A stretch of 14,028 nucleotides of DNA from Phytoactinopolyspora endophytica (GTDB lineage: Bacteria > Actinomycetota > Actinomycetes > Jiangellales > Jiangellaceae). Positions within the stretch are counted from its first letter, which is position 1; each line of letters opens with the position of its first letter. Shown here piece by piece: positions 1,648-12,138 of this stretch. The notes under the pieces are model-generated. The model saw nothing but the letters and a program-made list of their open reading frames with translations. It searched no databases and had not been told where the DNA came from. A program made the translations under genes and the position numbers. The stretch is from assembly GCF_004138495.1 (NCBI RefSeq), contig NZ_ML142870.1:27560-41587 (forward strand), written 5' to 3'.

Positions 1648-2307
1648 ATGGCGCATCCGCTGTACAAACTTCTCCACGAGGCAGCCGACGGTCGCTTCCC
1701 TGCGGCGGATGGGCAGGTCCGTGTCGTGCCACCGCTGCACGACGGCTTGGAATGCTCCTACGCCTTCACCGGACACGCCATCGTCGCGACGGCGCTGCCC
1801 ACAGTCGACTTCCACGGCGACCGGCCGGACGGGTTCGGCGGGTCCCTCGCTCCCGGCTTCCTCCGCCGGCTGGCCGGCCCGGGCGGCTGGATCGGTGTCA
1901 TCGATGCGACCCTGGTCACGCGCGGGCGCGGAGGCGCACCGGCGCTGCCTGCGCAGACCGGCCTCGACGATAACGACCGAGTTCGCCATGCTCGTTCGAT
2001 TCGGTCGGACGTGCGCGTCTACGGCGACGAACGCGGCTTCGTCACACTTGGAACAGGGCTGGCCGGGCGACGCGAGCTCAGCATCGAGGTGCCGCCCAAC
2101 GGTCAAGGACGCGGATGGGGCCGATCGTTGCTCTCCGACGCCCTGACCCTCGTGCCGGACGGCGAACCGGCCTTCGCCGCTGTCTCCCCTGGCAACGCGC
2201 GTTCGCTCCGCGCGTTCCTGGCCGCGGGGTTCACGCCGATCGGTTCTGAAGTCCTCATCCGGCCGAACCGGCGACCGCGATCGACCAACCCGCCGGCGGG
2301 AGCGTGA
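1648..2307 (+). CDS. GNAT-family N-acetyltransferase
   Basis: From ATG 1648 the protein has 219 residues and no signal peptide or membrane segment, so it should be cytosolic. The C-terminal half shows GNAT features: beta strands around residues 120-150, the acetyl-CoA pyrophosphate loop GQGRGWGRSL (152-161), and motif-B-like NARSLRAFLAAGF (183-195). The N-terminal part (DGRFPAADGQVRV, then FTGHAIVAT) resembles a set of actinobacterial GNAT proteins of unknown substrate. GNAT enzymes move an acetyl group from acetyl-CoA to an amine, but the acceptor cannot be told from sequence. The last 53 bp overlap the 3' end of the convergent amylase gene. It stands alone on its strand, and context gives no clue to its substrate. 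Confidence 0.85.
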   Translation: MAHPLYKLLHEAADGRFPAADGQVRVVPPLHDGLECSYAFTGHAIVATALPTVDFHGDRPDGFGGSLAPGFLRRLAGPGGWIGVIDATLVTRGRGGAPALPAQTGLDDNDRVRHARSIRSDVRVYGDERGFVTLGTGLAGRRELSIEVPPNGQGRGWGRSLLSDALTLVPDGEPAFAAVSPGNARSLRAFLAAGFTPIGSEVLIRPNRRPRSTNPPAGA

Positions 2308-3559
2308 CCAGGTCGGCTGTGAGTTCACCGGTCCCTGCGACGCGCTGCCAGTCCGCCGTGGGAAGCCCGAGATCCACCGGCTGTTCGCCGATGTTGAGCG
2401 CGACAGCCAGCCACTCTTCTCCCTCTCCCACGGTGTAGACGATGGACGTGTTGGTCAGCGCATGCACGGTGGCACGGGAGGACACCAGCCACGGGTGACG
2501 ACGGCGCAGTCCGATGAGAAGCTGATGGAGTCGGTAGTATCCCCACCCGTCCACCGCCAGGCCGTCTGGGGTGTCCGGGAACGCCGGTCTGATGGCGTCG
2601 TCGCCGCCCTCCCGTTCCTCCTTGATGCCACGGAATGCCTGCTCGTCACCGGCATAGACCGACGGCACGCCGCCCACCGTCAGCAGGACGACGAGTGCGT
2701 GCTCCAGATGACGCTCGTCGTCCAGCCGGCTGGCGATCCGGGTGACGTCGTGGTTCCCGAGGAACGTCTGCGGGGTGAACGTGCCCAGCAGGGCATTGTG
2801 CCGGCCGAGGGTCCAGCTGAGCTCGTGGAGGTTGTGGTCGTTGAGTGAGCTCCAGATCGCCTTCCACAGCTCGTACTGGGTGACCGAGTCCAGCCCGCCG
2901 TCCTGCACGAACGCGCCGTATTCGCCATGAATGACCTCGCCGACGAACCAGGCGCCCGGGTGGCGTGCCCGTACCCGCGTCGTCACCTGATGCCAGAACG
3001 ACACGGGCACCGTGTAAGCCGCGTCCAGCCGCCAGCCATCGACGCCGCGGTCCAGCCAATGCGACATCACATCACTCACGTAATCGACCACTGCCGGGGC
3101 GTCGTGGTTCAGCACGACCAGCCGGTCGTGGCCTTCGAACGTACGGTAGTCACCGTCCGAGTCGACCTGGAACCACGAGGCGAATCGGGAGTCCGATCCG
3201 TGCTTGAGAACGTCCTCGAACGCGGGAAAACCCCTGCCGACATGGTTGAACACACCGTCCAGCAGCACCCGCACACCCCGAGCGTGTGACTGCTCGATCA
3301 GGCGGACCAGATCGTCCTCGTCACCGAGCCGGCCGTCGATCCGGAAGTGATCAACCGTGTCGTAGCCATGGGTCTCGGAGGCGAACACCGGCCCCAAGGC
3401 AAGCCCGTTGCAACCCAGCTCGACGAGGTAGTCCAACCAGCCGGCCAGTTTCGGCAACCGCGACACCGCAGGCGAACCGGGCGAGAGCGCCTCCCGCTCC
3501 GCACCGACGAAGCCCAACGGGTAGACGTGCCACCAGATGGCGTGCGTAGACCACTCCAC
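2255..3559 (-). CDS. Alpha-amylase family (GH13) glycosidase, intracellular
   Basis: From GTG 3559 the protein has 434 residues, a compact GH13 length. The four GH13 motifs are present in order: DGVFNH (101-106), GWRLDAA with the probable nucleophile D179, GEVI with the probable acid/base E208, and FLGNHD with the transition-state Asp D271. A short C-terminal beta domain follows (about residues 350-434). There is no signal peptide, so the enzyme should act on cytosolic alpha-glucosides such as maltodextrin, glycogen-derived chains or trehalose-like sugars. The exact GH13 subfamily and substrate are not clear. The frame continues upstream to an ATG at 3688, but that 43-residue extension (Pro/Arg-rich) looks non-coding, and conserved-looking sequence starts at HAIWWHVYPLGF. 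The GTG has only a weak ribosome-binding site, so the start is not certain. It diverges from dhaK and overlaps the GNAT gene by 53 bp at its 3' end. Confidence 0.9.
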   Translation of the reverse strand: MEWSTHAIWWHVYPLGFVGAEREALSPGSPAVSRLPKLAGWLDYLVELGCNGLALGPVFASETHGYDTVDHFRIDGRLGDEDDLVRLIEQSHARGVRVLLDGVFNHVGRGFPAFEDVLKHGSDSRFASWFQVDSDGDYRTFEGHDRLVVLNHDAPAVVDYVSDVMSHWLDRGVDGWRLDAAYTVPVSFWHQVTTRVRARHPGAWFVGEVIHGEYGAFVQDGGLDSVTQYELWKAIWSSLNDHNLHELSWTLGRHNALLGTFTPQTFLGNHDVTRIASRLDDERHLEHALVVLLTVGGVPSVYAGDEQAFRGIKEEREGGDDAIRPAFPDTPDGLAVDGWGYYRLHQLLIGLRRRHPWLVSSRATVHALTNTSIVYTVGEGEEWLAVALNIGEQPVDLGLPTADWQRVAGTGELTADLVTLPPAGWSIAVAGSAG

Positions 3560-3717
3560 TCGCCCATCATGAATGCATCGTGGTGCGACCGAGCAACCCG
3601 GGCCGGGACTACTCCATGGCCGCCTCTTCGGGCGTAGGGTGTGGTACAGGTCGGGTCGGAGCGGAACCCTTCGCGTCGGCCCGAGCATCCGCCGGGACCG
3701 CAGGTTTGGAGCCGCTG
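3560..3717. promoter_or_regulatory. Divergent promoter region between the amylase gene and dhaKLM
   Basis: This 158-bp spacer separates two head-to-head transcription units and must hold both promoters and any shared operator. It contains G/C-rich elements such as cccgggccggg, but I cannot assign a -10/-35 pair or a clear regulator site on either strand. The call rests on gene layout rather than motifs. Confidence 0.5.
3708..3711 (+). promoter_or_regulatory. Ribosome-binding site that decides the dhaK start
   Basis: GGAG at 3708-3711 lies 6 nt before ATG 3718. The frame is open further upstream to 3580, but that stretch (Ala/Gly/Ser-rich) does not look like DhaK. The family-typical start MKKLINSPDAV matches ATG 3718. 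Confidence 0.7.
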
Positions 3718-4707
3718 ATGAAGAAGCTGATCAACTCCCCCGACGCCGTCATCCCGGATGCGCTGCGCGGCCTCGCCGCCGCCCATCCCGGCCTCAACGT
3801 CGATGTCGAGAACCGGATCATCTCACGCGCCGAGCGGACCCCTGGAAAGGTCGGACTGGTCTCCGGTGGCGGTTCCGGGCACGAGCCCTTGCACGGAGGT
3901 TACGTCGGGCGCGGCATGCTCGACGCGGCGGCTCCGGGCGAGGTCTACACGTCGCCGGTACCCGACCAGATCCTCGCCGCGACCGAGGCAGCCGACGCCG
4001 GCGCAGGGGTGCTGCACATCGTGAAGAACTACACCGGCGACGTCCTCAACTTCAGGATGGCGGCCGAGCTCGCCGAGGACGACGACGTCCGTGTCGTGTC
4101 GGTGGTCATCAACGACGACGTCGCCGTTGAAGACTCCACGTTCACCGCCGGACGACGCGGTGTCGGTGGCACCATCGTCGCCGAGAAGGTCGCCGGTGCC
4201 GCCGCCGAAGAGGGCGCCGATCTCGACACAGTCGCCCAGCTCGCCCGTGAGGTCAACGAACGTTCCCGCTCGTTCGCCATCGCCCTGCACGCGGGTACGG
4301 TTCCCGCGGCGGGCAAACCCGGCTTCGAACTCGCCGGCAACGAGGTGGAGATCGGCGTGGGCATCCACGGCGAGCCCGGCCGCCAGCGAGGCGAGTTCGC
4401 TCCCGTCAAGGATCTCGTCGGCTACGCGCTGGATGCCATCCATGCCGACCTGCCGGTGTCCGGCGATGTTCTGGTCATCATGAACGGCCAGGGCGGAACC
4501 CCATTGATCGAGCTCTACGGCGCGTTCGCGGAGGCCGCCGACTGGCTGCAGGGACATGGTGCGACGGTGGCCCGCAACCTGGTCGGCAACTACATCACCA
4601 GCCTGGACCAGGCGGGGTTCTCCATCACGGTCACCTCGCTCACGGACGAGCTCGTCCGCCTGTGGGACGCCCCCGTATCGACGCCCGCCCTGCGCTGGGG
4701 AGTGTGA
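3718..4707 (+). CDS. dhaK: Dihydroxyacetone kinase subunit DhaK
   Basis: This 329-residue protein has the usual DhaK length. DhaK binds dihydroxyacetone covalently through a histidine; the DhaL subunit then phosphorylates it to dihydroxyacetone phosphate, which enters glycolysis. The substrate-binding His is H217 in GVGIHGEPG, and two more active-site elements are visible: H55 in GGGSGHEP and D108 in NYTGDVLNF. The protein is cytosolic. It is the first gene of dhaK-dhaL-dhaM, with 3 bp between its stop and the dhaL start. It probably serves growth on glycerol or dihydroxyacetone, or recycling of dihydroxyacetone made elsewhere. No dha regulator gene is next to it; the divergent gene is the GH13 enzyme. 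Confidence 0.96.
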   Translation: MKKLINSPDAVIPDALRGLAAAHPGLNVDVENRIISRAERTPGKVGLVSGGGSGHEPLHGGYVGRGMLDAAAPGEVYTSPVPDQILAATEAADAGAGVLHIVKNYTGDVLNFRMAAELAEDDDVRVVSVVINDDVAVEDSTFTAGRRGVGGTIVAEKVAGAAAEEGADLDTVAQLAREVNERSRSFAIALHAGTVPAAGKPGFELAGNEVEIGVGIHGEPGRQRGEFAPVKDLVGYALDAIHADLPVSGDVLVIMNGQGGTPLIELYGAFAEAADWLQGHGATVARNLVGNYITSLDQAGFSITVTSLTDELVRLWDAPVSTPALRWGV

Positions 4708-4710
4708 TCA

Positions 4711-5337
4711 ATGACGTTGGACACTGCAACCGCCGTGGCCTGGATCACCCGTGCCGCTGAAATCATCCGGGCCGACGAGTCCCGGTTGACCGGTCTCGAC
4801 GCGGCGATCGGCGATGGTGACCACGGCGCCAATCTGGCCCGCGGTTTGGCCGCCGCCGTCACCTCGCTGGAGGAGACGCAACCCGAGAGCCCAGGGAAAG
4901 CGCTCATGGCCGCTGGGCGTGGCCTGGTCGCCAAGACCGGTGGCGCGTCCGGGCCGCTGTACGGTACGGGCTTCCGGCGGGCCGGCAAAGAGCTGGGAGA
5001 CGGGACTGACGCCACCGGCGTCGGCGACGCGCTCGAGGCGATGCTGCGGGGCATAGAGGAGATCGGCGGGGCAGTGCAGGGCGACAAGACGATGATCGAC
5101 GCGCTCGCTCCGGCCGTCGCCGCTTTCCAGGAGGCGGCCGGGAACGGGGCTGACCTCCATGCCGCCGCCGTCGCCGCCGCTGATGCCGCCGAGGCCGGGC
5201 TGGCGGCGACGGTTCCGCTGCAAGCTCGTAAGGGCCGAGCAAGCTACCTGGGCCCGCGCAGTGTCGGACACGAGGATCCCGGCGCGGCGTCCACCGCGCT
5301 CATCATGCGTGCGCTCGCGGAGGTGACCGCCCCGTGA
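4711..5337 (+). CDS. dhaL: Dihydroxyacetone kinase subunit DhaL (ADP-binding phosphotransfer subunit)
   Basis: This 208-residue cytosolic protein has the normal DhaL length. DhaL holds a tightly bound ADP that is rephosphorylated by DhaM and passes the phosphate to dihydroxyacetone on DhaK. The Mg-ADP binding aspartates D30, D35 and D37 lie in LDAAIGDGDHG. The nucleotide-binding TGGASGPLYGT loop and the C-terminal GRASYLGPRSVGHEDPGA segment are also intact. Its ATG follows the dhaK stop by 3 bp and has a strong GGGGAG site (4697-4702). Its stop overlaps the dhaM start by 4 bp (GTGA), so the subunits are probably made in fixed ratio by coupled translation. Confidence 0.96.
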   Translation: MTLDTATAVAWITRAAEIIRADESRLTGLDAAIGDGDHGANLARGLAAAVTSLEETQPESPGKALMAAGRGLVAKTGGASGPLYGTGFRRAGKELGDGTDATGVGDALEAMLRGIEEIGGAVQGDKTMIDALAPAVAAFQEAAGNGADLHAAAVAAADAAEAGLAATVPLQARKGRASYLGPRSVGHEDPGAASTALIMRALAEVTAP

Positions 5338-5747
5338 CCGTCGGTATCGTTCTCGTCTCGCATAGTGCGGCACTCGCGGCGGCGACGGCAGAGGTGTCAG
5401 GCACCCTGTCCGGTCCGGCTGTCCGGCTGGAGCCGGCGGGCGGCACCGACGACGGCGGCATGGGCACCAGCATCGAGCTCATCCGCTCCGCGGTGTCCAA
5501 GGCCGACGCCGGCGACGGGGTGCTGATCCTCATGGACATGGGTAGCTCGGTGCTCACCGCCAAGACTCTGCAGGCCGACCTCGAGGACGCGAACTTGGAG
5601 GACGACGGCGGGACGCCGCTGGTGCGTCTCGCCGATGCCCCGTTCGTCGAGGGTGCGGTCGCAGCCGCCGTGCTCGCCTCCACGGGTGCCGACCTGGAGG
5701 CTGTCGCTCAGAGCGCGGAACAGGCGTGGAGCATGCGCAAGCTCTGA
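5334..5747 (+). CDS. dhaM: DhaM-type phosphocarrier (PTS EIIA-like), single-domain form
   Basis: This 137-residue protein starts with GTG at 5334 inside the dhaL stop (GTGA overlap). It has the EIIA-like DhaM fold signature: VGIVLVSHSAALA with the phospho-accepting H10, GGTDDGGMGTS, then GVLILMDMGSS. DhaM takes phosphate from HPr of the phosphotransferase system and rephosphorylates ADP on DhaL. The E. coli DhaM also carries HPr and enzyme-I-like domains; this protein stops after the EIIA-like domain, so general HPr and enzyme I must come from elsewhere in the genome. The gene is last in the operon and converges on the sulfatase gene, 39 bp away. Confidence 0.94.
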   Translation: MTVGIVLVSHSAALAAATAEVSGTLSGPAVRLEPAGGTDDGGMGTSIELIRSAVSKADAGDGVLILMDMGSSVLTAKTLQADLEDANLEDDGGTPLVRLADAPFVEGAVAAAVLASTGADLEAVAQSAEQAWSMRKL

Positions 5748-5786
5748 GAGTCCACTCCGATCTCCATATAATCTCCATCTCCGGGG
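5748..5786. other. Convergent spacer between dhaM and the sulfatase gene
   Basis: Only 39 bp separate the two stop codons. The spacer contains a near-direct repeat of atctccat (about 5760-5778) but no hairpin with a U-run on either strand. I see no intrinsic terminator for either transcript here. Confidence 0.4.
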
Positions 5787-7253
5787 TCATGCTCCGCTCC
5801 CTGAAAGGCCCGTCGCAGTCGACAGGCATGCGGCCACCGGGCGTCCGGTCATCAGCCGGCCGCCATCGGTGAAGCCTTCCTCACGACCGGTCAGCTGGGC
5901 GATGAGGGAGGAACGCCACTGCACCAGTGTCTGCGCCATCGACGGCTCACCGGCGAGATCCCGGGTCTCCTGTGGATCAGCGATGAGGTCGAAGAGTTGC
6001 TCACGGCCCGAGCCAGAGAACCACACATACTTGGTGCGCCCGTCGGTGAGCCACTGCAACGACTGGCCGAACAACGTGTGCTCCCCGTGCAGCACGTCTC
6101 GCCACGGCACGTCGTCGCCTCGCGCGAGGCTGAGCAAGCTGCGGCCTTCGACAGTCTCCGGAACCGGGACGCTCGCGCACTCCAGTAACGTCGGCATGAC
6201 ATCGCGCAACTCGACCACGTCGTCGCGGACGCCGCCTCGCTTCAGCCCGCTGCCCTCCGGACCGGCCAGGATCATCGGAATCCGTGCCGATCCCTCATAG
6301 GGGAAGCCCTTCCGGAAGAGATGGTGGTCGCCCAGCATCTCGCCGTGATCGGACACAAAGCAGACGTAGGTATTCTCGCGTGCACCGTGTTGCTCCAGCT
6401 CACCGAGCAGGTAGCTGATCTGCTGATCCACATGCGCCATGTGCCCGTAGTAACCGGCCTTGGCGCGATGTAGCAGATGCGGATCGAACCGCCCGGCGAA
6501 AGCGGCCGGGTTCGCCGGATCATGTTGGTCGCCGAACACATCCGTCCAGTCGCCCACCGGCGAATCGGGCATGTCCCTATGGAGGAACTGCTCGAATGCC
6601 CAGCCAGGCGGATCGTACGGCGGGTGGGGCGCGTTGAACGAGACATGCAGGAAGAACGGCTTACGCGGATCACGCCGCCGGAGGAAATCGGCCGCCTGTG
6701 TCGCGACGAAGTTGGTCGGATGCGTGTGCTCGGGTTTGTCCCAGGGCCGGGCCACCAGCGAGTTGCTGTCGACGCCGTGGTCAAAGTAGGTAGCATCGCG
6801 CCCCAGCTGCTGGCGTAGCCAAGGCAGGTAGTCGTCCACCAGGTCCGGATCACGGCCGCGCTGCCGCGCCGTCCGCACGATGCCAGTGGGGCTGTGCAGG
6901 ATGACGTTCTGGAACCCCAGCTGTGACCGTTCCGGATAGACGTGCATCTTCCCGACGGCCTGGGTCTGGTAGCCGTGCCGGGTCAGCTCCCCGGCCAGGG
7001 TCACGTCGTAGTTCCATTCGACACCGTCCTGGTAGCCGACCCGCCCGTGTGAACGCTGGCCCAGGCCGGTGTGCAGCGCCGCCCGGGCCGGGATGCACGT
7101 CGGCACCGCCGAGTACGCCCGGCTGAACCGGACGCCCTGGGCGGCCAGCCGGTCGAGGAACGGCGTCTGAACCACCGGATGACCGGCGGCACTCAAGCAG
7201 TCACCACGCCATTGGTCCACCATGAGAAGCAGAAGGTTCGGCCGATCGGTCAT
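5787..7253 (-). CDS. Sulfatase (alkaline-phosphatase superfamily, Cys-type formylglycine motif), probably cytosolic
   Basis: From ATG 7253 the protein has 488 residues, typical of S1-type sulfatases. It hydrolyses sulfate esters using a formylglycine made from Cys53 in TCIPARAALHTG (C-x-P-x-R), so the host should also have a formylglycine-generating enzyme. Other active-site elements are visible: D13 and Q14 (LMVDQWRGD), K102 and H104 (VGKMH), H210 (NAPHPPY), D302-H303 (SDHGEMLGDH) and K315. The start overlaps the GH16 stop by 4 bp (ATGA), so a longer upstream start (16 residues) is unlikely. There is no signal peptide. With the transporter and the secreted GH16 upstream, it most likely desulfates imported sulfated oligosaccharides. 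A choline-sulfatase-like or other small sulfate-ester role cannot be excluded from sequence. Confidence 0.92.
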   Translation of the reverse strand: MTDRPNLLLLMVDQWRGDCLSAAGHPVVQTPFLDRLAAQGVRFSRAYSAVPTCIPARAALHTGLGQRSHGRVGYQDGVEWNYDVTLAGELTRHGYQTQAVGKMHVYPERSQLGFQNVILHSPTGIVRTARQRGRDPDLVDDYLPWLRQQLGRDATYFDHGVDSNSLVARPWDKPEHTHPTNFVATQAADFLRRRDPRKPFFLHVSFNAPHPPYDPPGWAFEQFLHRDMPDSPVGDWTDVFGDQHDPANPAAFAGRFDPHLLHRAKAGYYGHMAHVDQQISYLLGELEQHGARENTYVCFVSDHGEMLGDHHLFRKGFPYEGSARIPMILAGPEGSGLKRGGVRDDVVELRDVMPTLLECASVPVPETVEGRSLLSLARGDDVPWRDVLHGEHTLFGQSLQWLTDGRTKYVWFSGSGREQLFDLIADPQETRDLAGEPSMAQTLVQWRSSLIAQLTGREEGFTDGGRLMTGRPVAACLSTATGLSGSGA

Positions 7254-8824
7254 CTCAAGGCACCCGCCCCATCGCAGGCGATGGAGCCGTCGAACTGACA
7301 TTGCTCACCTGGCGCGGTGTACGCGACTCGGTCCACCTGCGCGGTGAGCGGACCATCCGGCGGGACGAAATCACCCATCTCGGGGGTCGTCTCGCTCGCC
7401 CAGACGTTGAAGAACATCTGAGCGGCCCGGTCCGGGATGCGGTCGGTGTTGACGATGGACACGGTGACCTCACCGTCAAGGTAGAAGTCGAGCCGATCCG
7501 CGGTCCAGACCATCCCGTAATCGTGGAACGCCTCATCTGACGGCGCGGACAGGTCCACGAACGTCGGCCGCAGCGGTTGGTCGTTCCGCCAGGTGTTGAC
7601 CTTGACCTGGTCGGGGTTGACCCCGAGCAGCTTGGCGATGTCGATCGCCTCGGACGGCTCCGAGGAGGTGGCGCCAACCCAGGTGAAGAAGGTCGACATC
7701 ACACCAGAGCCTTCGACACCTCTCATCTTGACCTCGTAGGTGCCGTAACCGAGCTTGCTCTTGTGCTGTACCTCCGCGCAGGCATAGTCGCGGTCACCGG
7801 TGGGCTGTTCCACGTAGGTCAGCTTGAGCACGCCGTCCGAGACCTCCACCTGGTCGGCATCCCAGGTGCAGTTCTGCTTCGCGCCGTTGTTCCATCCGTC
7901 GGAGACGTTCCAGCGCGACGTGTCGAGCGTGTCGAAGTCGTCGACGAACGACGTCGTCGGCGGCTGGACGTCGATGCCGCAGGCCACGGAGCCGGCGAAC
8001 TGACAATCCTCGCCCGCACGGGTGAACGCCACGTACTGGTACTCGGTGGTGATGGGGTGGCCCGGATACTCGAACTCCCCCATCCAGTCAGTCAGCGTGT
8101 CCGTGCTCCACAGCATGGTGAAGATGAACTGGTTGCGGGTCGGAACGTCGGCCGGGTCGGTCAGTGTGTGCACCAGTTCCCCATCGATGAAGAACCGCAC
8201 GCGGTCCTGCTCCCACACGTAGGCGAAGTCCACCCATTGCTCGCTGCTGTCGTACCCGATGTCGGCCGGCCAGGGACCCCGGTTGGAGCCGTTGACGTGC
8301 GTGTTCAACTCCACCTCGGTGGTGTCCTTGCCGAGCACCTCGAAGTCGAGCTCCATGTGCGGTTCACCGTGATACGGCCCGACGTAGGAGAACAGCGACG
8401 AGTTGGTTCCGCTGGCCTTGCCCGCCTTCATCCGGGTCTCGTACGTGCCGTAGCCGTACCGTTTGTTGGTCTGAATCGCCCCACAGGAGTAGTCGCGATC
8501 GCCGTAGGACGTGTCGTCCAGCGTGAGCGTCAGGACTCCGCCGGCGACGGTGGCTTTGTCCTTGTTGAACTCGCAGTTCTGGTGGCCGCCGTTGTTGTAG
8601 CCGTCATTCACGAACCAGAAGTCCGGGTCGATGCCCGCGTCAAACTCCTCGATGAACGATTCGCCGCCGAGGTCAGCCTGCATGCCGGCCTGTGACGGTG
8701 CCGGGACAGCGCGCTCTGCGTCAGCCGAAGTAGGCTGCGCCTGAGGCGTGATGGCGGTGACTCCGCAGAGAGTGACGGCGGCTGTGGTTGCCGCCATGAT
8801 GGTCATTCGTCGTCGTGTTCGCAT
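7250..8824 (-). CDS. Secreted tandem GH16 protein: one active and one apparently inactive GH16 domain
   Basis: This 524-residue protein starts with a Sec-type signal peptide (RRR, then a hydrophobic stretch at about 8-27, probable cut near 29-34). Two homologous GH16 domains follow, about residues 55-285 and 291-518. Shared landmarks are YNNGG/WNNGA, QNC (C84, C319), GDRDY-C (C114, C349), LGYGTYE or YGYGTYE, and a closing Cys pair (DCQFAGSVAC, QCQFDGSIAC). Domain 1 keeps the catalytic motif ELDFE (E158, D160, E162). In domain 2 the same site reads AIDIA (A393, D395, A397), so both catalytic glutamates are lost. From memory the domains resemble bacterial ExoK/ExsH-type and licheninase-like GH16 enzymes that cut beta-glucans or succinoglycan. 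The exact substrate is not known, and a sulfated glycan fits the neighbouring sulfatase. Its stop overlaps the sulfatase start. The gene lies 72 bp after the ABC ATPase. Confidence 0.93.
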   Translation of the reverse strand: MRTRRRMTIMAATTAAVTLCGVTAITPQAQPTSADAERAVPAPSQAGMQADLGGESFIEEFDAGIDPDFWFVNDGYNNGGHQNCEFNKDKATVAGGVLTLTLDDTSYGDRDYSCGAIQTNKRYGYGTYETRMKAGKASGTNSSLFSYVGPYHGEPHMELDFEVLGKDTTEVELNTHVNGSNRGPWPADIGYDSSEQWVDFAYVWEQDRVRFFIDGELVHTLTDPADVPTRNQFIFTMLWSTDTLTDWMGEFEYPGHPITTEYQYVAFTRAGEDCQFAGSVACGIDVQPPTTSFVDDFDTLDTSRWNVSDGWNNGAKQNCTWDADQVEVSDGVLKLTYVEQPTGDRDYACAEVQHKSKLGYGTYEVKMRGVEGSGVMSTFFTWVGATSSEPSEAIDIAKLLGVNPDQVKVNTWRNDQPLRPTFVDLSAPSDEAFHDYGMVWTADRLDFYLDGEVTVSIVNTDRIPDRAAQMFFNVWASETTPEMGDFVPPDGPLTAQVDRVAYTAPGEQCQFDGSIACDGAGALR

Positions 8825-8896: not shown

Positions 8897-9931
8897 TCAG
8901 GCGAGCTCGGATGCGACGCCGGCCAGGCTGAGCTCGTCGGATCTCAGGCACGCGGCGTGGTGGCCCGGACCGATCCCGTCGAGCACCGGCCCCTGACCGG
9001 ACACGTCGCACACGCCCGCCACGGCGTACGGGCAGCGGGTGTGGAAGTAGCAGCCGGCCGGCGGGTTCGACGGGTCCGGAAGGTCGTCGGTGAGCCGGAC
9101 CCGCCGGCCCACATCTCGCAGCCGCGGGTCGGGCCGCGGCACCGCCGACAGCAGCGCCTCGGTGTATGGATGGCGCGGTGACGCGTAGAGCTCCGCCGTC
9201 TCCGCCAGCTCTACGATCTTGCCCAGGTACATGACCGCGACCCGGTCACAGACGCTCTCCACCACGGACAGGTCATGGGACACGAACAGGAAGGTCAGGC
9301 TGAACTCTTCCTGCAGGTCGCGCAGCAGGTTCAGAATCTGGGCCCGGACGGACACGTCCAGCGCCGAGACCGGCTCGTCCGCGATCACCAGCCGTGGTCC
9401 GAGGATGAGTGCACGGGCGATGTTGACCCGTTGCCGCTCTCCACCGGAGAAGGCGTGCGGGTAACGATCCATGTACTTCGGCGACAGTCCTACCCGCGCA
9501 AGCATGTCGGCCACCCGGTCCTCCAGCTCAGAACCGGTGGCGATCCCATTGGCGCGCAGCGGCTCGCCGACGATCTGCCGCAACGTCATCCGCGGGTTCA
9601 GCGAAGAGAACGGGTCTTGGAACACCACCCGGATCTGGCGTTGGAAGGGCCGCAGCTCCCGTTCCCGTAGCGCGGCAAGATCCGTGACCGTCCCATCCGT
9701 CCCGCGATAGCCGATCATTCCGGTGCTCGGCTTGATGATGCGAGAGATCGAGCGACCCAGCGTGGTCTTGCCACAGCCGGACTCTCCCACCAGACCGAGC
9801 GTCTCGCCTGGCTGGATGGTCAGGTCCACACCATCCACCGCACGCACGTGTCCGACCGTGCGGCCGATGAAACCGGCCTTCACCGGGAAGTGCACCTTCA
9901 GGTCGCGGACGTCGAGAATGGGCATGGTCAT
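8897..9931 (-). CDS. Oligopeptide/dipeptide-type ABC transporter ATPase (OppF/DppF-like)
   Basis: This 344-residue cytosolic ATPase belongs to the peptide/nickel (family-5) importer group. Motifs are intact: Walker A GESGCGKT (49-56), Q-loop Q105, signature FSGGE (161-165), Walker B with E186, and H219. The C-terminal oligo_HPY-like region has four cysteines (294, 300, 308, 328). Members of this family import peptides, nickel, or in many soil bacteria oligosaccharides. The neighbouring GH16 and sulfatase genes favour sugars here. The ATG at 9931 overlaps the previous stop (ATGA), so the start is secure; the second ATG (9925) is less likely. Confidence 0.93.
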   Translation of the reverse strand: MTMPILDVRDLKVHFPVKAGFIGRTVGHVRAVDGVDLTIQPGETLGLVGESGCGKTTLGRSISRIIKPSTGMIGYRGTDGTVTDLAALRERELRPFQRQIRVVFQDPFSSLNPRMTLRQIVGEPLRANGIATGSELEDRVADMLARVGLSPKYMDRYPHAFSGGERQRVNIARALILGPRLVIADEPVSALDVSVRAQILNLLRDLQEEFSLTFLFVSHDLSVVESVCDRVAVMYLGKIVELAETAELYASPRHPYTEALLSAVPRPDPRLRDVGRRVRLTDDLPDPSNPPAGCYFHTRCPYAVAGVCDVSGQGPVLDGIGPGHHAACLRSDELSLAGVASELA

Positions 9932-10989
9932 CGCTGGACCTCCTCTGCGCCGAGCTGCCCGTCATCGCCGATCAGGTCCGCGTTCTCGTGCAGCACGCAA
10001 CGGGCGGTGCGCCCTGGACCGACCCGCACATCGGGTGGATCGGACCGGTCGCACAGCCCGGCGACAGCGTCGCCACAGCGTGGATGGAACGGGCATCCGG
10101 ACGGCCGATCGGACGGGTGCGGCACGTTGCCCCGGATCGTGGCGAGCCGTTGCCCAGTGCCTGCCCCCATCCGCGGGATCGACCCCAACAGCGCGCGCGT
10201 GTAGGGATGCTTCGGGTCGTGAAAGATCTCGTCCACGCCGCCGCGCTCTACCACCGTGCCCAGGTACATCACGACCACCTCGTCCGCGATCTCCGCCACC
10301 ACACCCAGATCGTGCGTGATGAACAGCACCGACATCCCGGTCTCGGCCTGCAGCTCGTGGATCAGGTCGATGATCCGCGCCTGCGTCGTCACATCCAGCG
10401 CCGTCGTCGGCTCGTCGGCGATCAACAGCGCGGGACCGGCAGCCAGTGCGATGGCGATCATCACCCGTTGGCACATCCCGCCGGACAGCTGGAACGAGTA
10501 CGCATCCAGGCGCTCCTCCGGCCGCGGAATACCCACCCGTCGCAGCAAGTCCGCCGCCCGCTCCCGCGCCTGTTCCCTGTCCAGCGGCATATGCAGCCGG
10601 ATCGCCTCCACCAGCTGGGCGCCAACGGTGTACATCGGCGACAGCGACGCCATCGGCTCCTGGAACACCATCGAGATCTCCCCGCCGCGAACCCGGCGCA
10701 TCTCCTCGCTCTTCGGCCCGTACCGGGCCAGGTCGACCGGCGCCTGACCGTCGCGCCGCCACCAGATCTCCCCGGCGACGACCCGGCCGGGCTCGTCGAC
10801 CAGGCCGAGCACGGAGCGGGCCGTCACGCTCTTTCCGCAGCCTGACTCGCCAACCACACACACCGTCTTGCCGGCCGGCACGGTCAGGCTCACCCCGTCC
10901 ACCGCACGCACCGTCCCCTCGCGGGTGAAGAAGTGCGTCGTCAGCCCGTCGATCTCCAACAGTGCGTCGCTGGCCTGCACAGGTCTCAT
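9928..10989 (-). CDS. Oligopeptide/dipeptide-type ABC transporter ATPase (OppD/DppD-like)
   Basis: From ATG 10989 the protein has 353 residues. Motifs are intact: Walker A GESGCGKS (47-54), Q110, signature LSGGM (168-172), Walker B with E193, and H226. The C-terminal oligo_HPY-like region has cysteines at 299, 305, 313 and 331. In a mycobacterial DppD such a set binds a [4Fe-4S] cluster, so this one may too (inference). It would pair with the OppF-like ATPase as a heterodimer that drives the two permeases. The start at 10989 is chosen because AAGGA lies 6 nt before it. An ATG at 10995 sits directly on AAGGA, so it is the alternative (355 residues). The gap to the previous stop is 9 bp, or 3 bp with the alternative start. 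Confidence 0.93.
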   Translation of the reverse strand: MRPVQASDALLEIDGLTTHFFTREGTVRAVDGVSLTVPAGKTVCVVGESGCGKSVTARSVLGLVDEPGRVVAGEIWWRRDGQAPVDLARYGPKSEEMRRVRGGEISMVFQEPMASLSPMYTVGAQLVEAIRLHMPLDREQARERAADLLRRVGIPRPEERLDAYSFQLSGGMCQRVMIAIALAAGPALLIADEPTTALDVTTQARIIDLIHELQAETGMSVLFITHDLGVVAEIADEVVVMYLGTVVERGGVDEIFHDPKHPYTRALLGSIPRMGAGTGQRLATIRGNVPHPSDRPSGCPFHPRCGDAVAGLCDRSDPPDVRVGPGRTARCVLHENADLIGDDGQLGAEEVQR

Positions 10990-10995
10990 CGCCAT

Positions 10996-11000
10996 TCCTT
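10996..11000 (-). promoter_or_regulatory. Ribosome-binding site that decides the OppD-like start
   Basis: AAGGA (minus strand) overlaps the stop TAA of the previous gene and ends directly before ATG 10995. It is 6 nt before ATG 10989. Normal spacing favours the second ATG. Confidence 0.55.
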
Positions 11001-12138
11001 ACTTCTTGTACGGGTCCGCGGCGTCGCGCAGACCGTCGCCGACGAAGTTCAGCGCCAGGACCGCGATGACGACGGCCAGGCCGGGGATCATCAACCACGG
11101 AGCCGTGGCCAGCACCCGGACGTTCTGCGCGTCCTGCAACAGCACGCCCCAGCTGACCACCGGGGGCTGCAGACCCAGCCCAAGGAAGCTCAGTGCGGTC
11201 TCGGCCAGGATCATCGCCGGGATCGACAGGGTCACGGACGCGATGAGGTGACTGGTGAACGACGGCAGCATGTGTCGATAGATCACCCGCGGCCGCCCGC
11301 TCCCGTCGAGGCGCGCAGAGGTCACAAACTCCTCGTTGCGCAAGGAGAGGAACCGGCCGCGCACGACACGCGCCATGTCCGTCCATCCGATGATGGCCAA
11401 GATCACGGTGATGGCGAAGTAGCGCTGCATCGGCCCCCACTCGTGTGGCAGCGCCGCTGACAGACCCATCCAGAGTGGAATCCCGGGGATCGACATGAAG
11501 AACTCGACCACGCGTTGGATGACGGTGTCCGTCTTGCCGGCGAAGTACCCGGACATGCCGCCCAGGATGATGCCGAGGATCAGCGCCATCGCCACGCCTA
11601 CCAGGCCGATCGTCATCGACACCCGGGTGCCGTGGATCATCCGGGACAGCAGGTCGTACCCATTGCGATTCGCCCCGAGCAAGTACATCGGCTGGTCCGG
11701 ATCCTCCGGGCCGATCAGGTGCCGATCCCACGGGATCAGCCCGAACAGCTCGTACTCGTCGCCCTTCACGAACAGGCCGACGTCGATCTTCTGTGACTTG
11801 TCCACCTCGAACGTCGGCTCGAACGTCTCCGGGTCGACGGTCGAGGTGTAACCGTGCACGTAGAGGCCGGCATCGGAGTCGATGCGCAACTGCTGCGGTG
11901 GCGCGTAGGTGTACTCCGAGTTGAACGTGCTGGAGCTCACCGGCGCGAGGAACTCGGCGAACAGCGCGACCAGATAGATGCAGGCGATGAGGACCAGCCC
12001 GACCATCGCCAGCTTGTGTTGGCGGAACTTCCACCACACGAGCCGCCGCTGAGTCGCCGCGCGCCGCCCGCCCGTCTCGTCACCGCCTGCTGGATCTCCA
12101 GTGACGCTCGCGTCGGCGTCTGGAAGAACGCTCGTCAT
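10999..12138 (-). CDS. ABC transporter permease (OppC/DppC-like) with a long extracytoplasmic loop
   Basis: This 379-residue inner-membrane permease has an Arg/Lys-rich N-terminus, then a first membrane helix at about 43-65. A long polar segment (about 66-173) follows before the helix bundle (helices around 175-197, 240-255, 297-320 and 348-368). The EAA-type loop that contacts the ATPases is at 269-292 (EEFVTSARLDGSGRPRVIY). Classical DppC proteins are about 300 residues; the extra length is mostly the first loop. A similar insert (TYAPP and DRHL landmarks) occurs, as I recall, in a subfamily linked to non-peptide solutes. The start has a good AGGAGA site (12150-12145) 6 nt upstream that overlaps the preceding TAG stop. 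Confidence 0.93.
   Translation of the reverse strand: MTSVLPDADASVTGDPAGGDETGGRRAATQRRLVWWKFRQHKLAMVGLVLIACIYLVALFAEFLAPVSSSTFNSEYTYAPPQQLRIDSDAGLYVHGYTSTVDPETFEPTFEVDKSQKIDVGLFVKGDEYELFGLIPWDRHLIGPEDPDQPMYLLGANRNGYDLLSRMIHGTRVSMTIGLVGVAMALILGIILGGMSGYFAGKTDTVIQRVVEFFMSIPGIPLWMGLSAALPHEWGPMQRYFAITVILAIIGWTDMARVVRGRFLSLRNEEFVTSARLDGSGRPRVIYRHMLPSFTSHLIASVTLSIPAMILAETALSFLGLGLQPPVVSWGVLLQDAQNVRVLATAPWLMIPGLAVVIAVLALNFVGDGLRDAADPYKK

Follow-up and report, generated by a model that had tools for sequence, protein, structure and literature searches.

What is the use of a second catalytic domain from which both catalytic glutamates have been lost? The question is raised by a gene of Phytoactinopolyspora endophytica at positions 7250..8824, minus strand, of the analysed stretch (14,028 nucleotides of contig NZ_ML142870.1, here called the window). 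Its open reading frame (ORF) starts with ATG and encodes 524 amino acids, and Pfam marks the product as a tandem of two glycoside hydrolase family 16 (GH16) domains. Domain 1 has kept its catalytic residues; neither catalytic Glu is left in domain 2, and the same is true of the second domains of all 25 tandem proteins compared. In our judgement this is probably a secreted glucan-degrading protein in which domain 2 is an old pseudo-hydrolase retained for non-catalytic work, of which holding a glycan is the likeliest kind. Because the relatives keep a dead domain 2 too, it is suggested that the dead copy serves another job.

The tandem nature of the protein, as claimed in the original prediction, was borne out by the Pfam scan. 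Specifically, PF00722 matches two stretches of the protein, and each half scored alone lies above the cut-off of 22 bits (domain 1 at 101.2 bits, domain 2 at 84.9 bits). A signal-peptide-like segment, recognised by eye from a basic start followed by a hydrophobic stretch, covers approximately residues 1–35 (8720..8824, minus strand, as are all features of this gene). Profiles, alignment and a structure model place domain 1, of the lichenase type, at residues 55–282 (7979..8662) and domain 2 at residues 290–517 (7274..7957). The two domains are 38.6% identical and are joined by a short linker of about 4–9 residues. Each carries the same cysteine landmarks (C84, C114, C274 and C282 in domain 1; C319, C349, C509 and C517 in domain 2), and these, which had also been pointed out in the original prediction, are real and do not vary among the 25 tandem proteins if gaps are ignored. 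The NCBIfam model NF052392, which is the ExoK model with a threshold of 350 bits, gives 570.8 bits for the whole protein, but this score extends over two stretches. In the structure model both domains have the GH16 fold, and the closest match of the domain 2 fold is to lichenases. The orientation of the domains relative to each other is uncertain in this model (predicted template-modelling score, pTM, 0.65), and residues 1–49 are of low confidence. A set of GH16_21 features, taken from the available part of PMC6827312, was used to compare the two domains. Domain 1 has them: an EXDXE strand without β-bulge, a short domain of ~210 residues and the conserved +1 Trp. In domain 2 the EXDXE motif is absent, there is an extra strand residue, and the +1 Trp is found in 0 of the 25 second domains. 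Domain 1 is therefore inferred to be an endo-glycanase of the lichenase/ExoK type of GH16, with predicted activity, and the whole protein is probably a secreted enzyme cutting β-glucan.

The active-site motif of domain 1 reads ELDFE (residues 158–162, with E158, D160 and E162; 8339..8353) and matches the catalytic pattern EXDXE/EXDXXE. The corresponding stretch of domain 2 lies within SEAIDIAKLL (residues 391–400); its pseudo-active-site motif E392-A393-I394-D395-I396-A397-K398 (7631..7651) reads A-I-D-I-(A)-K and does not match. The numbering of these residues had been given correctly before, and the idea that the fold was retained while the catalytic residues were lost agrees with the alignments and with the models of both domains. 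The claim that both glutamates had become alanine is right at the nucleophile (A393); at the acid/base position it is not supported. In HMMER alignments of domain 2 with solved lichenases, A397 is unpaired and K398 stands opposite the acid/base residue in 5 of the 5 alignments shown. A MAFFT alignment of 21 tandem proteins has the extra strand residue in 16 second domains and lacks it in five (P0015, P0017, P0018, P0019 and P0020), which read E-A/S-x-D-x-K; the acid/base position is Lys or Arg in all 21. The modelled strand is eight residues long in domain 1 (157–164) and nine in domain 2 (392–400). It has been shown that an extra residue at this site of the strand divides GH16 subfamilies with EXDXXE (bulge) from those with EXDXE (PMC6827312, available part). 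The motif of domain 2 is thus best read with A393 in place of the nucleophile, K398 in place of the acid/base residue and A397 as an insertion. Since both HMMER and the family alignments pair K398 with the acid/base residue, a small residue, Asp and Lys take the place of Glu, Asp and Glu. We considered a hidden acidic pair that would make use of Glu392 and rejected it: Glu392 does not align with the nucleophile but with the position just before it, where 98 of 101 non-tandem relatives have Asp. The sequence evidence supports a non-catalytic nature of domain 2. As a separate observation, the second domains of P0019 and P0020 have six residues fewer in the loop before the active-site strand, in addition to the missing extra residue; judged from the alignment, this is another remodelling of the dead site.

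How general is this loss? The protein searches returned at least 31 proteins, at least 154 (120 examined) and 284 (120 examined). The set of 25 tandem proteins consists of the window protein, P0002–P0020, P0032, L005, L037, L039 and L040. P0001 was omitted as the window's own protein, and L033, L034, L035, L036 and L038 because their last 200 residues are identical to those of P0002, P0006, P0007, P0008 and P0014; the tandem loci of genomes G009, G010 and G144 were left out as assumed copies of the named loci, without comparison. It is important to note that the 25 proteins are not 25 independent witnesses, because in some pairs one domain or both are near-identical (P0016 and L039, P0003 and L005), and P0019 and L040 are close. 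All 25 first domains have kept E, D and E at the catalytic motif. In the second domains the nucleophile position is occupied by Ala (16), Gly (6), Ser (2) or Thr (1), the central Asp is kept in 24 and is Asn in one, and the acid/base position is Lys in 21 and Arg in four; neither catalytic Glu is kept in any of them. The residue preceding the nucleophile position is Glu in 25 of 25. Altogether 36 residues are invariant across the second domains, whose mean identity is 58.8% (61.3% for the first domains). Among the matches listed, a pattern search finds the catalytic motif in 109 of 109 and in 97 of 98 non-tandem relatives, and the aligned column shows it in 101 of 101. The sole exception is P0131 (227 amino acids), which reads SEAIDVKLLG, is of the domain 2 type and has no domain 1; it may be a stand-alone dead GH16 domain or a fragment of a tandem gene.

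Named hosts of the tandem gene are Phytoactinopolyspora halotolerans, Jiangella aurantiaca and J. endophytica (two copies each), Pseudactinotalea terrae and Nonomuraea deserti; these loci are eight of the best 80 of 227 loci. The loss of the catalytic Glu is common to hosts of three actinobacterial families. The tandem arrangement itself is uncommon. Of the 22 genomes of the order, 5 had full-length tandem matches, as did 6 of 393 genomes sampled in the class, and a domain 2 profile at E ≤ 1e-25 found only the window's own genome among 396 sampled Actinomycetota genomes. That genome, rated 94% complete, yielded one tandem GH16 gene. A first contig scan with a single protein as query gave no match. 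One class-level match (L117 in genome G339) was rejected as a tandem, because the match is to one GH16 fragment only, which carries DEIDVE and lies at the start of a contig.

To place the two domains in history, an unrooted domain tree was built with the motif columns removed, 14 non-tandem rows included and five distant rows (P0024–P0028) dropped. All 25 second domains fall on one side of one branch (support 100/100), and the 25 first domains together with P0021, P0033 and P0034 fall on one side of another (100/99). With distant outgroups the second domains group with rhizobial single-domain enzymes, at an SH-aLRT (Shimodaira–Hasegawa-like approximate likelihood ratio test) value of 80 only. 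P0021 and P0034, which have no domain 2 behind their GH16 domain, group inside the first domains; P0021 (812 amino acids) carries its first-domain-type GH16 after a long N-terminal region without a listed Pfam domain. The sequence of P0033 stops just past the first domain with no clear end, and it was not counted as lacking domain 2, because it is possibly a cut tandem. The simplest history that fits the tree would be a single origin of the tandem and a single loss of catalysis in domain 2, with domain 2 dropped later in the P0021/P0034 lineage. Domain 2 could plausibly have come from an internal duplication, or else from a fusion of two related genes; the trees, with and without distant outgroups, do not separate the two.

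The ratio of non-synonymous to synonymous substitution rates (dN/dS) was estimated by NG86 with a Biopython module flagged as experimental; the values are rough, and YN00 was usable once only. Between the window and its nearest relative, P. halotolerans L033, dN/dS is 0.107 for domain 1 and 0.119 for domain 2. The two Jiangella pairs give 0.103 and 0.147 (L037 and L038) and 0.142 and 0.376 (L035 and L036), and the comparisons with L005 give 0.412 and 0.259 for the window, 0.388 and 0.210 for L033 and 0.249 and 0.227 for L034. The value for domain 2 is well below 1 in all six pairs (0.12–0.38) and is lower than that for domain 1 in three of them. The low dN/dS together with the one well-supported branch indicates that domain 2 is retained by selection and is not decaying.

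What is selection retaining? The original prediction proposed a binding role, and the cleft of domain 2 speaks on both sides. According to the available part of PMC6827312, the substrate-binding aromatics of GH16_21 are Tyr24, Tyr94, Trp103 and Trp192 (1GBG numbering), Phe92 of 1GBG forms the −1 platform, and a conserved Trp stands at +1. The second domains have Trp at the Tyr24 position (25 of 25), Tyr or Trp at the Tyr94 position (25 of 25) and the Phe92 platform in 21 of 25. Further positions, which we take to be cleft positions of the lichenase literature, are kept or replaced to different degrees: Glu63 in 25 of 25, Arg65 as Gln in 25 of 25, Trp184 in 25 of 25, Asn26 in 20, Asn182 in 18, Tyr123 as Trp in 14 and Asn121 in 10. 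If the cleft residues other than Phe92 lie on the donor side, as we assume, it looks as if domain 2 has given up the +1 side and the catalytic centre and retained much of the donor side. The binding idea is further helped by GH16 mutants with one Glu or none, which still hold sugars in the solved complexes 1u0a, 8xpk and 4bow, as judged from the structure titles and, for 1u0a, the sequence.

Several observations weigh against a glycan-holding domain 2. The Trp103 position is aromatic in none of the 25 second domains, and the +1 position, Trp192, has neither Trp nor any other aromatic in them, while it is Trp in all 25 first domains and in 11 of 11 rhizobial enzymes. In an entropy test against random domain 2 positions, we did not find a specially conserved cleft: ten non-catalytic cleft positions have an entropy of 0.81 vs 1.12, which 10% of the random samples matched, and 17% did so in a strand-only control. 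The same ten positions of domain 1 are more conserved than random (0.4% in both controls). Domain 2 has the higher dN/dS in three of the six pairs, markedly once. Domain 2 appears to be dispensable in some lineages, because P0021 and P0034 do without it, and PF02018, presumably a carbohydrate-binding domain, is present in 6 of 21 tandem proteins (P0004, P0007, P0008, P0009, P0011 and P0032). Because the cleft is not significantly more conserved than random positions, glycan binding by domain 2 is a reasoned guess.

The same observations can be turned towards a structural partner, a domain 2 that packs on domain 1, where it would add stability or shape the cleft, and that does not itself bind sugar. 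We regard this as the less likely reading, though one of some weight. The short linker would suit it, as would the two non-aromatic Trp positions and a cleft that is not specially conserved in a domain that is under selection as a whole. On the other hand, several cleft residues of domain 2 are invariant, the proteins P0021 and P0034 manage alone, and the packing stays uncertain along with the orientation of the modelled domains. Regulation of domain 1 by domain 2, through allostery or product sensing, is in our view quite unlikely. The dead domain always lies behind the intact one in the 25 tandem proteins, which is weak support since these were chosen as tandems; the occurrence of domain 1 without domain 2 and of P0131, which resembles a stand-alone or cut domain 2, speaks against it.

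We find it still harder to believe that domain 2 runs a different chemistry with Glu392, Asp395 and Lys398. The tight conservation of these three positions would be expected of such a site. However, the acid at the Glu392 position is not new, as 98 of the 101 non-tandem relatives carry Asp there next to their intact Glu pair; judged from strand alternation, Glu392 should point away from A393 and D395, and no sign of another chemistry was found. The explanation to which we give the least credence is that domain 2 is a decaying relic without function. The lost catalytic residues, the slightly lower identity among second domains and the one Jiangella pair with 0.376 vs 0.142 would fit decay, but the low dN/dS in all six pairs, the 36 invariant residues, the single branch of the tree and a loss common to three families all disfavour it.

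If domain 2 is indeed a retained pseudo-hydrolase, the sequence of events may be pictured as follows. Domain 2 would have descended from the same type of enzyme as domain 1 by one old duplication or fusion. Its nucleophile Glu would have been replaced by Ala, Gly, Ser or Thr and its acid/base Glu by Lys or Arg, most simply once, before the tandem family diversified. Since then it would have been retained as a folded, selected, non-catalytic domain that uses what is still conserved of the former cleft to hold the glycan beside the working domain 1, and would thus act like a carbohydrate-binding module. Such a module is defined as non-catalytic and as experimentally shown to bind a carbohydrate; the sequence supports the first half of this definition.

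Which known systems does this resemble? The rhizobial ExoK-type GH16 enzymes (n = 11) have a mean identity of 46% to the first and 44% to the second domains, and one of them, P0023, has a closing Cys pair similar to that of the window protein; they differ in being single-domain enzymes with E-D-E intact in 11 of 11 compared. The structures 1gbg, 3o5s and 1u0a, which we take to be active Bacillus lichenases (1u0a in an engineered form), have the fold common to both domains and share the EXDXE strand with domain 1. Bacillus lichenases are single-domain, whereas domain 2 lacks both Glu and the aromatics at Trp103 and Trp192. Dead GH16 domains as such are familiar. Loss of one or both catalytic residues affects ~9% of GH16_4 members, compared with 0.7% in GH16_3 and 1% in the remaining subfamilies (PMC6827312), and dead GH16 domains of insects bind glucan (PMC6403176), as stated in the available parts of these papers. 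As far as those parts go, the GH16_4 binding proteins (insect β-GRP/GNBP and kin) likewise are GH16 proteins that lost the catalytic Glu and have a binding role, but they are animal or fungal, while the present domain 2 is bacterial, lichenase-type, located beside an intact twin and confined to one tree branch. RfGH16_21 of Ruminococcus flavefaciens also has tandem GH16_21-type domains in one protein, three of them with a dockerin, and is described as a cellulosomal licheninase (PMC12484212); the available part of that description, by which alone it was compared, mentions no dead domain. A non-exhaustive literature search of titles and abstracts found no conserved, one-branch dead lichenase-type domain behind an intact bacterial one. 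Precedents thus exist both for dead GH16 domains that bind and for tandem GH16_21 enzymes.

If our reading is true, this is a bacterial case in which a hydrolase turns into a binding domain while the twin next to it remains active. Three states can then be compared: single-domain enzymes that are intact, their intact counterparts in the tandems, and the dead domains. The 25 sequences are at hand as a test set for following the changes of a cleft after selection for catalysis has ceased. There is also a warning for annotation: public names and the profile library label the whole protein licheninase or ExoK, which is misleading for half of it, because domain 2 lacks the residues for that chemistry. 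The name licheninase (EC 3.2.1.73, for cleavage of the β-1,4 linkages in mixed-linkage glucan) comes from annotation here.

The neighbouring genes, all on the minus strand, give some indication of the substrate. The tandem GH16 gene ends a same-strand transporter gene run, in which it is preceded by a family-5 solute-binding protein (PF00496; 13192..14013), two ATP-binding cassette (ABC) transporter permeases, one assigned by PF00528 (12149..13090) and the other by eye and by place (10999..12138), and two ABC transporter ATPases named by eye (9928..10995 and 8897..9931). The gene with PF00496 probably extends beyond the window, and the listed ORF would be its C-terminal part; the relative in L033 has 670 amino acids. 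Behind the tandem gene lies an arylsulfatase-like gene (5787..7253; Sulfatase PF00884, with a CIPAR motif). Its likely ATG (7253) overlaps the stop codon of the GH16 gene as ATGA (7250–7253), and the start given for the listed ORF, 7301, probably lies 16 codons upstream of the true one. Close transporter orthologues in the same order adjoin the tandem GH16 gene in L033 and L034 of P. halotolerans and in L037 and L038 of Jiangella, and L005 (G020) has close orthologues of the two ATPases beside it. Within 10 kb, the transporter genes found in L039 and L040 are all distant (~25–41% identity), and L035 and L036 have only distant ATPases (28–34%). The window's genome (L120), G020 (L122) and P. halotolerans (L033) carry a LacI-type regulator and a flavin adenine dinucleotide (FAD) oxidoreductase upstream of the transporter. 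In L122 and L033 the tandem gene is followed by a GH3 gene, and in L038 a GH3 gene precedes the transporter; in the window the arylsulfatase-like gene takes its place after the tandem gene.

Taken from its gene content, the locus reads as a regulated system that would cut a glycan outside the cell and import the pieces. GH16 and GH3 together point to a β-glucan, and a sulfated glycan is possible because a sulfatase gene follows the tandem gene. A bolder version, to which we assign a low probability, is that domain 2 founds a GH16-derived bacterial binding family reading an anionic, perhaps sulfated, β-glycan that the sulfatase desulfates and domain 1 cuts. The invariant Glu, the retained Asp and the Lys or Arg in place of the acid/base Glu may then form a rebuilt site.

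Some minor observations remain. In this protein domain 1 has His at the Trp103 and Tyr123 positions (H156 and H176), which may mean a shift in its specificity; His is found at these positions in 6 and 2 of the 25 first domains, respectively. In P. halotolerans (L033 and L034) a stretch of ~12 kb, holding GH3, a sulfatase, an FAD oxidoreductase and a second transporter, separates two tandem GH16 genes. In the window (2255–8824) the tandem GH16 gene and the sulfatase are directly followed by three genes recognised by eye as dihydroxyacetone-kinase-like, and by a GH13 gene. It looks as if the second-copy stretch were missing here or had been added in P. halotolerans. Finally, at about 198–390 of the window, short Ser/Thr-rich repeats (VTQSTT..., SPSSTV...) were seen by eye in overlapping ORFs on both strands.

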